This document shows positions 12,582 through 31,990 of a stretch of DNA of 51,211 nucleotides, one piece after another. This DNA comes from Deltaproteobacteria bacterium (lineage in GTDB: Bacteria; Desulfobacterota; Syntrophia; Syntrophales; UBA8958). The stretch is from contig JAKQIZ010000005.1 of NCBI GenBank assembly GCA_029561465.1, positions 1 through 51,211 of the forward strand, in the 5' to 3' direction. A program made the position numbers and the translations under genes. Numbering within the stretch: the first letter of the stretch is position 1; every line of letters starts with the position of its first letter. The notes under the pieces were generated by a model. That model was not told the DNA's origin, searched no databases, and saw nothing but the letters and a program-made list of their open reading frames with translations.

Positions 12582-14123
12582 ATGATCGATGAAAATGAAT
12601 TCTTTCGCCAGTTGACCATGCGGATCTGCAGCTCGCTGGATATCGAGACGGCAATGCGCCGGTCCCTGGATTATTTTTCCCAGGTAATGCCGGTGGACCG
12701 GATTTACCTGCACCTCTATGAAAAGAGGATCGGCGCGGTGCAGACGATTGCCGAGGTGACGCCCTTCGCCAGCAAGACCCTCGACAAAGTGACGCCTTTG
12801 GACCCAGAGGGACGCGCCAGTCTGGAGCAGCCAGGGGTGCCGAATGTCCGCATCGTCAAACGTCCCGAAACCGATCCGGTGGTGAAGAAACTGGCGGCCT
12901 CCCTTAACATGCCGCAATCTTCATCGCTCCTTATGCGTTTGGTAATCGAAGGAGAACGCCTGGGAACACTGGCGCTGATGGCGGACGGCTTCGACCGCTA
13001 TACGGAAGAACACGCCCGCCTCCTGGCGCTGTTGAACGAGCCCTTTGCCCTGGCCCTGTCCAATGCCCTCACCCATCAGGAGGTGCTCCGCCTCAAAGAC
13101 CGGCTGACGGATGACAACCGCTATCTGCGCCAGGAGCTGTTCAGCATGTCCACCGGCGAGATCATCGGCACGGATTTCGGGTTGAAGGAGGTCATGGAAA
13201 TGATCCGAAAGGTGGCGCCGCTGGAAAGCCCCGTGCTGCTCCTGGGAGAAACCGGGGTAGGCAAGGGGGTCATGGCCGGGGCAATTCACCGTCTTTCCAC
13301 CCGGAGCAAGGGACCTTTCATTACCGTTAACAGCGGCGCAATTCCGGAAACGCTCATCGACAGCGAGCTGTTTGGTCACGAGAAGGGGGCCTTTACCGGT
13401 GCCATCGAGACCAAGCGGGGACGTTTTGAAAGAAGCCATCAGGGGACGATCTTTCTGGATGAAATCGGTGAACTGCCCCTCCCGGCGCAGATCAGGATGC
13501 TGCGGGTCCTCCAGGAAAAGGTCATCGAACGGGTGGGCGGTTCCAAATCCATCCCCTTGGACATCCGCATCATTGCCGCGACCCACCGCAACCTGACGGG
13601 AATGGTCCGGGACGGACGGTTCCGGGAGGACCTGTGGTTTCGCATCAATGTCTTCCCCATCCGTATCCCGCCGCTCCGGGAGCGAAAAGGCGATATTCCG
13701 TCGCTGGCCTTCTATTTCATCAACAAGAAGACCCGGGAGTTGAAGTTGACGGCGGTTCCTGAACTGGGGCCGGGGGCGGTGGAACGCCTGATGAATTATC
13801 ACTGGCCGGGAAACGTCCGGGAGTTGGAGAATGTCGTCGAAAGGGAGATGATCCTGACCCAGGAGGGACCGCTTAAGTTTCTCAATCTTTCGGGGCCGGC
13901 GGTGGGAGACGGACCGGCACAGCAATCCCCCCGCCTGCCGGTGGCCGAGCCCCGCCGTCTCGATGACGTCAGCGCTCGGCATATCGAACAGATCTTGACG
14001 GCAACCGGCGGCATTGTCCATGGCCCCCGGGGGGCGGCGGCCCTGCTGGGAATCAATCCCAGCACCCTCCGCAGCCGGATGAAGAAACTCGGCATCCCCT
14101 ACGGCAGGAAAAGACGCCCTTGA
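12582..14123 (+). CDS. Sigma-54-dependent activator with N-terminal GAF domain
   Basis: 513 residues. GAF-like sensor at about 15-165 (ICSSLDIETAMRRSLDYF...VDRIYLHLYE; LGTLALMADG; FALALSNALTHQEV), a linker helix, AAA+ domain at about 195-425 with Walker A GETGVGKG (about 221-228), the sigma-54 contact loop GAFTGA (about 269-274), Walker B TIFLDEIGELP and the arginine-finger region RFREDLWFRINVFPI; Fis-type helix-turn-helix at the end (GPRGAAALLGINPSTLRSRMKKLGIP). It is the FhlA/NorR layout with one GAF domain. AAAGGAGGAGA precedes ATG. The gene diverges from the ior operon and almost certainly controls it; the ligand of the GAF domain is unknown, an arylpyruvate or related acid being a reasonable guess. 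Confidence 0.92.
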   Translation: MIDENEFFRQLTMRICSSLDIETAMRRSLDYFSQVMPVDRIYLHLYEKRIGAVQTIAEVTPFASKTLDKVTPLDPEGRASLEQPGVPNVRIVKRPETDPVVKKLAASLNMPQSSSLLMRLVIEGERLGTLALMADGFDRYTEEHARLLALLNEPFALALSNALTHQEVLRLKDRLTDDNRYLRQELFSMSTGEIIGTDFGLKEVMEMIRKVAPLESPVLLLGETGVGKGVMAGAIHRLSTRSKGPFITVNSGAIPETLIDSELFGHEKGAFTGAIETKRGRFERSHQGTIFLDEIGELPLPAQIRMLRVLQEKVIERVGGSKSIPLDIRIIAATHRNLTGMVRDGRFREDLWFRINVFPIRIPPLRERKGDIPSLAFYFINKKTRELKLTAVPELGPGAVERLMNYHWPGNVRELENVVEREMILTQEGPLKFLNLSGPAVGDGPAQQSPRLPVAEPRRLDDVSARHIEQILTATGGIVHGPRGAAALLGINPSTLRSRMKKLGIPYGRKRRP

Positions 14124-29944: not shown

Positions 29945-30784
29945 ATGGGTAGCGAATTCCAGTACCGGTTGGCGGGAAACAGGATGGCCCTGGCCGGCGG
30001 GATTATCGTCATCCTCCTGTTTGTCGTCTCTTTGGCCGCGCCGTTGCTCGCCCCCTATGATCCTCTGGCCATAGATCTGACACGGATCTTGGCCCCGCCC
30101 TCATGGCAGCACTGGTGCGGTACGGATCAACTGGGCCGGGACGTCCTGAGCCGGATGATTTGGGGGGCGGGCATCTCGTTGAAGGTGGGTTTCGTGGCCA
30201 CCGGCATCGCCGTGTTGATCGGCGCCCTCCTTGGTGCCCTGGCGGGATACTACGGCGGCTGGTGGGATATGGTCATCATGCGCCTGGTGGATGTTATGCT
30301 CTGCTTCCCCACCTTTTTCCTCATCCTCGCAGTCATTGCCTTTCTGGAGCCCTCGATATGGAACATCATGATCATCATCGGGGCGACGGGTTGGATGGGC
30401 ATTGCCCGCCTGGTCCGGGCCGATTTCATGTCCCTCAAGGAGCGGGATTTCGTCACGGCGGCCCGGGTCCTCGGGGCCAGCGACACCCGGATCATCTTCC
30501 GTCACATCCTCCCTAATGCCATGACTTCCATTCTAGTGGCGGCAACGCTGGGGGTGGCCGGGGCGATCCTCACGGAGTCGGCCCTGAGTTTTCTCGGCAT
30601 CGGCGTCCAGCCGCCGACGCCAAGCTGGGGCAATATCCTTACCGCGGGGAAGGACAACATCGATATCGCCTGGTGGCTTTCCCTCTATCCCGGCCTGGCG
30701 ATCCTGATCACGGTCCTGGGATACAACCTGCTCGGGGAGGGGATCCGTGACGCCCTTGATCCCCGGCTCCGCGGCGGTCGGTAG
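29945..30784 (+). CDS. Dpp/Opp-type ABC transporter permease (DppC-like)
   Basis: 279 residues. N-terminal helix with the OppC_N segment (RMALAGGIIVILLFVVSLAAPLLAPYDP), HWCGTDQLGRDVLSRMIWGA typical of DppC, five further helices, and the EAA loop (MSLKERDFVTAARVLGASDTRIIFRHILPNAM). Ends in LGEGIRDALDPRLRG, the conserved C-terminus. Starts 9 nt after the DppB-like stop. A terminator follows, so no ATPase or binding protein belongs to this transcript; both must come from elsewhere. Confidence 0.94.
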   Translation: MGSEFQYRLAGNRMALAGGIIVILLFVVSLAAPLLAPYDPLAIDLTRILAPPSWQHWCGTDQLGRDVLSRMIWGAGISLKVGFVATGIAVLIGALLGALAGYYGGWWDMVIMRLVDVMLCFPTFFLILAVIAFLEPSIWNIMIIIGATGWMGIARLVRADFMSLKERDFVTAARVLGASDTRIIFRHILPNAMTSILVAATLGVAGAILTESALSFLGIGVQPPTPSWGNILTAGKDNIDIAWWLSLYPGLAILITVLGYNLLGEGIRDALDPRLRGGR

Positions 30785-30789
30785 AGAAT

Positions 30790-30824
30790 AAAAAAGGCTC
30801 CTGATAAACAGGAACCTCTTTTAT
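30790..30824. terminator. Bidirectional terminator
   Basis: AAAAAGG-C-TCCTG, loop ATAAA, CAGGA-A-CCTCTTTT: a 10-bp stem with one internal mismatch, A-run before and T-run after. It lies between the convergent ends of the dppC-like gene and the Lys/Ala-rich gene. Confidence 0.8.
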
Positions 30825-30847
30825 TTAAAGCTAAAAAGGTGCGCTTA

Positions 30848-31078
30848 TTACTTCTTCTCAGCGGCGGCGGCCGGTGCTTTCTCCTCGGCCTTCTCAGCCT
30901 TCTTGGCCTTCTTGGCCTTCTTGGTCTTCTTGGCCTTCTTCTCCTTCGCGGGGGCCTTCTCTTCCGCCTTTACGGGCTCAGCGGCGGGCTTTGCAGCCGG
31001 GGCCGCCTGTGCGAACGCCAGACCGGACATAGAAAGGGCGAAAAGGATCGAAACAACGATCGAGAGCAGTTTCTTCAT
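30848..31078 (-). CDS. Small exported Lys/Ala-rich protein
   Basis: 76 residues. A clean signal peptide (MKKLLSIVVSILFALSMSGLAFAQA, cleavage after AQA) precedes a mature part of about 50 residues made of only six amino acids (A, K, E, P, V, T), with a run of KK-A units (about 45-62). It looks like histone-H1-tail or nucleic-acid/polyanion-binding sequence but would act in the periplasm or outside. GGAGGT precedes ATG 31078. It has its own sigma-54 promoter with IHF and upstream sites (next entries). No known family; the function could be binding of LPS, surface polymer or extracellular DNA, but this is a guess. The low-complexity part could also be a frame-independent artefact, but the signal peptide, ribosome site and promoter argue for a real gene. 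Confidence 0.82.
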   Translation of the reverse strand: MKKLLSIVVSILFALSMSGLAFAQAAPAAKPAAEPVKAEEKAPAKEKKAKKTKKAKKAKKAEKAEEKAPAAAAEKK

Positions 31079-31117
31079 TTAGGGTGTCACCTCCTTTCAT
31101 TTTTTTATCCTACCTAA

Positions 31118-31132
31118 ACAAGAAGCGTGCCA
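31118..31132 (-). promoter_or_regulatory. Sigma-54 promoter of the Lys/Ala-rich protein gene
   Basis: Minus strand TGGCACGCTTCTTGT: perfect -24 TGGCACG, 4-bp gap, -12 TTGT (consensus TTGC). Start expected near 31106, 28 nt before the start codon. Confidence 0.72.
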
Positions 31133-31160
31133 TAAGCGGCGATTGATGAATATCCTGCTA

Positions 31161-31173
31161 TATCAAGATATTG
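31161..31173 (+). promoter_or_regulatory. IHF-binding site
   Basis: TATCAAGATATTG matches the IHF consensus WATCAA-N4-TTR at every position. It lies between the sigma-54 promoter and the upstream sites, about 60 bp from the predicted start, the standard spot for DNA bending. Confidence 0.65.
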
Positions 31174-31218
31174 TGATTGTGGCGGGGGATTTTTTCGGCC
31201 CACCGGCGGCATGATGAT

Positions 31219-31253
31219 GGGGAAATATTCCCCCTTTTGTGAGGAAATATTCC
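31219..31253. promoter_or_regulatory. Two inverted-repeat sites GGGAA-ATA-TTCCC, probable upstream activator sites
   Basis: GGGGAAATATTCCCC (31219-31233) and GGAAATATTCC (31243-31253), centres 22 bp apart, i.e. two helical turns on one face. They lie about 120 and 142 bp upstream of the predicted sigma-54 start. The sequence differs from the TTGCGA sites at 12.5 kb, so a different activator is expected. Confidence 0.6.
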
Positions 31254-31282
31254 CGCCGCGCCGCCCGGCGCCTGGTGGGGCG

Positions 31283-31990
31283 TCATGGCAGAGGCGGTGG
31301 TTTATGCTTGAGCAGATTGAGCAGCTTGTCCCGGTAAAGATAGGCGGCGACGACGGCGAGGAGACTGACGGCGGCCAGGATCCACAGGGGTCCGTGCTGT
31401 TCGTTTCTCAACATGTCGCCGCTGATGGACAGCATGGCGGTTCCCAGGAGCCGCCCCAGGGTGGAGACGACGAGAAACATCCGCACCGGCATGTGGCTGA
31501 GACCGATTATGTAGCACAGGGCGTCCTTGGGAAAGCCGGGGATGAGAAACAGGATGAAGACCACCCAACTCCCCTTGTGCTTCATGAAGTAGTCGTATTT
31601 CTGAAGGATCGTGGGGCGGACGGCCTTTTCCACAAAGGGCAGGCCCAGCCAGCGGGCCAGGGAAAAGGCGAGCCAGGAGCCGATGATGAGGGCGATGGTG
31701 GAATAGATCGTGCCGAGGACGGCGCCGTAAATGTAGCCGCCGATGAAGCCGGTCGCTTCTCCGGGAACCGGTGCGAACAGGACCTGGAGGATCTGGAGGC
31801 CGATGAACACCAGCACCGACAGGGGACCGAATGAATTGATAAAATCGATGGCCTTGTTTCGGTTCGTGAAGAACTGGATAAGATCATAATGAATGAAAAG
31901 CCAGGTCCCGCCGCCGAAAAGCAACCCGAATAAAAGGATCTTCAGAAGCGTGTTCTTGTTCATCCCGCGGCTTTGGCCTTTCTTCCCCAT
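31283..31990 (-). CDS. TVP38/TMEM64-family membrane protein (VTT domain)
   Basis: 235 residues, DedA-related. Six predicted membrane segments; the VTT-type motif lies at FAPVPGEATGFIGGYIYGAVLGT (about 77-99), the amphipathic reentrant region, and F-L-I-P-G-F-P-K-D-A near 145-155, where the family has [F/Y]-x-x-R/PG. Members are lipid scramblase or flippase-like proteins, the exact cargo being unsettled. Two starts are possible, ATG 31990 or ATG 31963; neither has a good ribosome site. It is a separate transcript, with no close partner; the GDPD gene upstream is 75 nt away and may precede it. Confidence 0.88.
   Translation of the reverse strand: MGKKGQSRGMNKNTLLKILLFGLLFGGGTWLFIHYDLIQFFTNRNKAIDFINSFGPLSVLVFIGLQILQVLFAPVPGEATGFIGGYIYGAVLGTIYSTIALIIGSWLAFSLARWLGLPFVEKAVRPTILQKYDYFMKHKGSWVVFILFLIPGFPKDALCYIIGLSHMPVRMFLVVSTLGRLLGTAMLSISGDMLRNEQHGPLWILAAVSLLAVVAAYLYRDKLLNLLKHKPPPLP

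Follow-up and report, generated by a model that had tools for sequence, protein, structure and literature searches.

A lysine/alanine-rich exported protein gene as the probable detached output of a lineage-specific, sigma-54-linked two-component system in Syntrophales

Introduction

In Escherichia coli and Salmonella, ZraS and ZraR use sigma-54 promoters to control the small periplasmic protein ZraP as well as their own operon, an essentially single-target regulon that responds to envelope stress (PMC4987338, PMC8249747). Another small exported protein is Asr, reportedly an intrinsically disordered chaperone that helps to keep the outer membrane intact (PMC10746267). In Desulfovibrio, many sigma-54 enhancer-binding proteins are present, most of them with one to four target operons, and a linkage of ior genes with a sigma-54 regulator (DVU1949) has already been reported (Kazakov et al. 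2015, PMC4641369).

Here we analyse a small gene with an elaborate promoter in a 51,211-nucleotide stretch of DNA (the window) from a bacterium of the order Syntrophales. The gene encodes a lysine-, alanine- and glutamate-rich exported protein, the KA protein. The shared enhancer and the operon linkage described below suggest an arrangement like that of ZraPSR, in which a kinase and an NtrC-type regulator act on a small exported protein and on their own operon. The regulator and kinase are not equivalogs of ZraR and ZraS, scoring 339 bits against a cut-off of 760 and 150.6 bits against a cut-off of 479, respectively. Unlike the zinc-binding ZraP, the KA protein is a K/A-rich polycation of predicted disorder that has no ZraP match and contains neither His nor Cys. 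The kinase operon also has an extra secreted protein, and the output gene is located elsewhere. Judged on these comparisons, the system is ZraPSR-like in its apparent working, is not ZraPSR by sequence, and has an unrelated small protein.

The KA protein resembles the acid shock protein Asr in being small, exported, basic, Ala/Lys-rich and predicted to be disordered. It differs in regulation and scores 25 bits against the cut-off of 50 for NCBIfam NF033636, a match driven by composition. Similarity to the Bdellovibrio host-interaction protein Bd0108, also small and exported, is faint (E 0.015; 15.8 bits against a cut-off of 40). In contrast to the Desulfovibrio regulons, the activator group considered here was confined to the order among the genomes sampled, and neither a GGGAA...TTCCC motif nor a lysine-rich target was found in the main text of the Desulfovibrio study (PMC4641369). 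In the open literature we found no title or abstract describing such a system in Syntrophus, or describing tandem-HTH enhancer-binding proteins.

Results

Promoter anatomy and conservation

Families within the order were labelled f1 to f21, the window genome belonging to f1. The initial annotation described paired upstream repeats with centres 22 bp apart, a perfect IHF consensus, a −24/−12 element and a 76-residue gene with a signal peptide. This layout is present on the minus strand, with the following features.

29945-30784, plus strand: oppC-like permease gene, convergent on the KA gene; neighbour kept in family f1
30787-30825, minus strand: terminator hairpin with a 17-bp stem and A/U flanks, common to the KA gene and the convergent oppC; −24.5 kcal/mol, z −6.2
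30848-31078, minus strand: open reading frame of the 76-residue K/A/E-rich exported KA protein; homologues in 22 of the 41 relatives searched
31010-31078, minus strand: predicted Sec-type signal peptide MKKLLSIVVSILFALSMSGLAFA, strongly conserved among homologues and confidently modelled
31087-31097, minus strand: extended Shine-Dalgarno sequence AAAGGAGGTGA, 11 nt long and 8 nt 5' of the ATG; identical or nearly so in almost all homologues
31118-31132, minus strand: −24/−12 (sigma-54) promoter TGGCAC-N5-TTGT (TGGCACGCTTCTTGT) with exact spacing, conserved; predicted start near 31106
31161-31173, plus strand: IHF site TATCAAGATATTG, a perfect match to the consensus, located between promoter and enhancer; 9 of 24 homologous promoters have a perfect or one-mismatch site in the equivalent position and orientation
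31220-31232, no strand assigned: promoter-proximal enhancer site GGGAAATATTCCC, an imperfect palindrome of the GGGAA-N3-TTCCC type
31242-31254, no strand assigned: promoter-distal enhancer site AGGAAATATTCCC, an imperfect palindrome of the same type, its centre 22 bp, or two helical turns, from that of the proximal site
31283-31990, minus strand: VTT-domain membrane protein gene, adjoining the KA gene upstream; neighbour kept in family f1

Taken singly, these elements are near chance levels. The exact match TGGCACGCTTCTTGT is the sole one at up to one mismatch in the 51-kb window, where 1.54 are expected by chance, making it a weak pattern alone; the IHF consensus has 3 matches against 0.67 expected. 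The single enhancer site GGGAANNNTTCCC gave 8 matches at up to one mismatch against 5.15 expected, which is not significant alone. A search for single sites through the genome pointed to eight places; besides the window's own, those inspected fall inside coding ORFs or at their margins and have no comparable promoter layout, so that single sites are uninformative. The tandem enhancer pattern, in contrast, occurs once in the 2.6-Mb genome at up to three mismatches, with 0 reversed-control matches. It is this uniqueness of the enhancer pair that bears out the original observation.

The −12 element reads TTGT (GT) in place of TTGC (GC), a deviation kept in 7/7 congeneric primary copies. No sigma-70-like promoter was found between 30700 and 31400. 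The genome encodes RpoN (Sigma54_DBD on contig C118, 222 bits) and IHF-alpha, the latter passing one curated cut-off and narrowly missing another.

A proposed check on the initial annotation was conservation of the three elements together with the gene. The paired sites and the −24/−12 element hold up: each of the 10 family-f1 genomes in which we found the KA gene has them with it, at similar spacing. Conservation of the IHF site is partial: WATCAANNNNTTR is perfect in the window genome and in genome G002, and has diverged in 5/7 congeneric primary copies. We regard the promoter architecture and its conservation as practically certain.

The KA gene and its product

In family f1 the KA gene lies between the VTT-domain gene and oppC, with an equivalent place in nine other genomes. 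Compared with G002 over 72 codons, it has 9 synonymous and 2 non-synonymous codon differences, the pattern of a translated gene; a comparison with G004 was set aside because of an indel. The repeated Lys codons also produce, as a reading-frame artefact, a 92-codon leucine-rich ORF antisense to the KA gene (30839-31117, plus strand). A scan with a closer homologue set returned 13 loci, in records named Syntrophus sp., Syntrophus aciditrophicus (a metagenome bin), Syntrophaceae, Syntrophobacterales and Deltaproteobacteria. A plasmid DNA search gave no match. In genome G007 a KA paralogue (L088, 9828-10034, plus strand) seems to carry a frameshift some 50 codons in, yet retains an intact distal enhancer site.

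The mature chain had been described as consisting only of A, K, E, P, V and T. It is indeed K/A/E-rich, but begins with Q. Besides Ala, Pro and one Val it has no hydrophobic residues, and its net charge is about +10. Across intact homologues the net charge ranges from +7 to +17, and most mature chains lack hydrophobic residues. Residue order and length vary among homologues while composition is kept, the mature chain being of low complexity and fast-changing. In a single-sequence structural model, which is weak evidence, the signal helix (approximately residues 1–20) is the only confident structure, and the mature protein is predicted to be disordered. The KA protein matched no Pfam family, and no anchoring or sorting motif was seen. 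Its signal peptide makes export to the envelope very likely. A role in envelope protection or as a chaperone is a tentative proposal, to which we give slightly less than even odds. Some genomes have at least two copies of the gene, which, together with the strong ribosome-binding sites, suggests that the protein is abundant.

A candidate activator linked to KA genes in other families

The window genome encodes 19 full sigma-54 enhancer-binding proteins, none of which adjoins the KA gene. In families f10 and f14 the KA gene adjoins an activator and a kinase, and the orthologue of that activator in the window genome is on contig C38. This contig carries a response regulator of the NtrC type (REC-AAA+-Fis HTH), a convergent histidine kinase (HAMP, HisKA, HATPase) and a small secreted protein. 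For a survey of operon linkage, 40 additional loci were fetched. At 20 loci of f4, f10, f13, f14 and f19, L095 and L096 among them, the KA gene is inside an operon with the small secreted protein and the kinase, and this operon is convergent with the activator gene. A KA sequence is fused with the small-protein gene in f5, and in f8 the KA gene lies close by, within 2 kb. The kinase operons of f1 and f16 have no KA gene.

Orthologues of the C38-type activator were found in 11/11 family-f1 genomes searched and in 89/154 genomes of the order. Sampling 395 genomes across the phylum gave 14 matches, every one of them within the order and none in the sampled genomes outside it.

The small secreted protein is the first gene of the kinase operon (L178, 3842-4423, plus strand, in the window genome; also L182, 3535-3939), and that of the window genome had no Pfam or NCBIfam match. 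In genome G014 it is fused with K/A-rich sequence (L183, 9239-9658). A GAF-domain protein is encoded near the activator gene in the window genome (L178, 8529-9095, minus strand), and a similar one is likewise encoded near it in G019 (L095, 4471-5034, plus strand).

The shared enhancer

In the families inspected, kinase-operon promoters have a paired site near TGATGAATAATTCCCCA-N4/5-TGGGGAATTATTCATCA, about 100–120 bp upstream of the −24/−12 element. A composite-site pattern found exactly two matches in each of five congeneric genomes, one at the KA promoter and one at the promoter of the small-protein/kinase operon; for the window genome's own kinase operon the site is at C38:33830-33854. There was no further match in 11 genomes, and there were 0 reversed-control matches. 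This pattern was written after both classes of site had been seen, and a matrix scan served as the independent test. The weight matrix was trained on 25 operon promoters with family f1 excluded. It ranks 31220-31254 first in the 51-kb window at 31–32 bits, compared with 20.9 for the best of only 20 Markov-simulated windows, and scores the genome's own operon promoter at 37.4 bits. The assembly of the window genome comprises 194 contigs and has 5.6% contamination; the pairing of KA promoter and operon promoter also holds in congeneric genomes.

These results make the C38 response regulator, very probably, the regulator of the KA promoter. A second activator, distinct from that of the ior genes, had been proposed at the outset, and the C38 regulator is a strong candidate for it on operon linkage, composite sites and matrix score. 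The KA promoter is the matrix's sole strong match in the window, from which it follows that the ior region does not use this activator. The claim that the full layout is spent on one small protein fares less well, as the elements appear to serve a small regulon, namely the KA gene and the two-component operon. In family f1, the KA gene has probably kept its enhancer after moving away from the kinase operon, as judged from the shared sites.

The window has an enhancer-binding protein gene of its own (12582-14120, plus strand), which had been placed with the ior genes. We consider it a poor candidate for regulating the KA gene, because a scan of the window with the activator matrix gave no strong site besides the KA promoter.

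A different activator in two families

In f6 and f12 the KA gene is mostly directly 3' of a REC-AAA+ activator with two tandem Fis-type HTH domains. These double-HTH proteins were found in only these two families of the order, examples being the following.

L092 10287-11870, minus strand: double-HTH enhancer-binding protein
L093 8514-10079, plus strand: double-HTH enhancer-binding protein
L097 8084-9646, plus strand: double-HTH enhancer-binding protein
L098 7518-9080, plus strand: double-HTH enhancer-binding protein

Most of them immediately precede one or two KA genes, each with its own −24/−12 promoter. None of the ten genomes that encode a double-HTH activator has a listed C38-type orthologue, and in eight of the ten the KA gene comes directly after the double-HTH activator. 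Shared ancestry bears on both this mutual exclusion and the order restriction of the C38-type activator, and we count these two facts as supporting rather than independent evidence. The double-HTH activator was rejected as a regulator of the window's KA gene because no f1 genome encodes it.

Discussion

We propose that the KA gene is a detached output of the lineage-specific two-component system of C38, ending most likely in a role at the envelope, and put the probability of this reading at about 75%. Its anatomy, conservation, shared enhancer, operon linkage and order-restricted distribution are read directly from the genomes; phosphorelay, binding, induction, periplasmic location and biochemical role are what we infer from them. 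In the proposed mechanism, the kinase would sense an envelope condition and phosphorylate the C38 response regulator, which would then occupy the two enhancer sites, at approximately −120 and −142, with a pair of dimers on a single face of the helix. In the window genome, IHF may bend the DNA between enhancer and promoter. The AAA+ domain would drive open complex formation by the sigma-54 polymerase at 31118-31132, giving a short monocistronic mRNA that would be translated very efficiently into a burst of disordered polycation with a mature net charge of about +10. Once exported, the polycation would work at the envelope, where it would most likely stabilise the outer membrane or serve as a charge-based chaperone, and/or be a feedback partner of the kinase.

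That the whole arrangement is a promoter-like chance sequence before a spurious low-complexity ORF is scarcely credible: each element alone occurs in the window about as often as chance predicts, but the conservation of order, spacing and association across genera, together with the coding-type substitutions, refutes it. The promoter could instead be sigma-54 dependent and driven by another enhancer-binding protein, the likeness of the enhancers reflecting cross-recognition or convergence. Such a protein might be sought among the 19 encoded, the operon promoter's site 1 (GATGAAAAATTCCTCA) has an outer half-site unlike that of the window site, and a different activator serves the KA-type gene in f6 and f12. 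Against this, there are only two composite sites per genome, a matrix built from other families puts the window site first, and KA genes are physically linked to a C38-type activator in seven families, so that we consider a different activator distinctly improbable.

The remaining alternatives concern what the protein does. Its main job might be signalling, as a periplasmic damper of the kinase in the manner of CpxP or ZraP, rather than as an envelope effector. The operon shared with the kinase and the small secreted protein in many families points this way, as does the enhancer before the system's own operon, which implies autoregulation; that ZraP represses ZraSR is the title of a reference cited in PMC4987338. 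Multiple gene copies and strong ribosome-binding sites suggest an abundance that sits poorly with such a function, and so does a low-complexity, rapidly changing mature chain of which composition alone is conserved. We hold signalling as the main function to be doubtful. The polycation could also be a structural coat or a binder of acidic polymers such as LPS, nucleic acid or other polyanions, consistent with its family's high positive charge, general lack of hydrophobic residues and predicted disorder. The absence of a recognisable anchoring or sorting motif and the link to a stress-type two-component system weigh against a coat or binder, which we rate as unlikely.

On the preferred reading, that of a detached C38 output, the locus may be part of an order-wide envelope stress system that we have not found described, with a Lys/Ala polycation as effector, its gene moved together with its enhancer in one family and its control handed to a tandem-HTH activator in two. 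We give this broader picture an even chance. The analysis provides a concrete assignment of regulator, target and site in uncultured Syntrophus-like anaerobes, which are genetically hard to study. A relocated target gene that retains its enhancer, and a natural swap from a single-HTH to a tandem-HTH activator on one output gene, would make the evolution of enhancer sites directly testable. Beyond this, the locus suggests that disordered polycations form a class of envelope proteins that would be under strict sigma-54 control.
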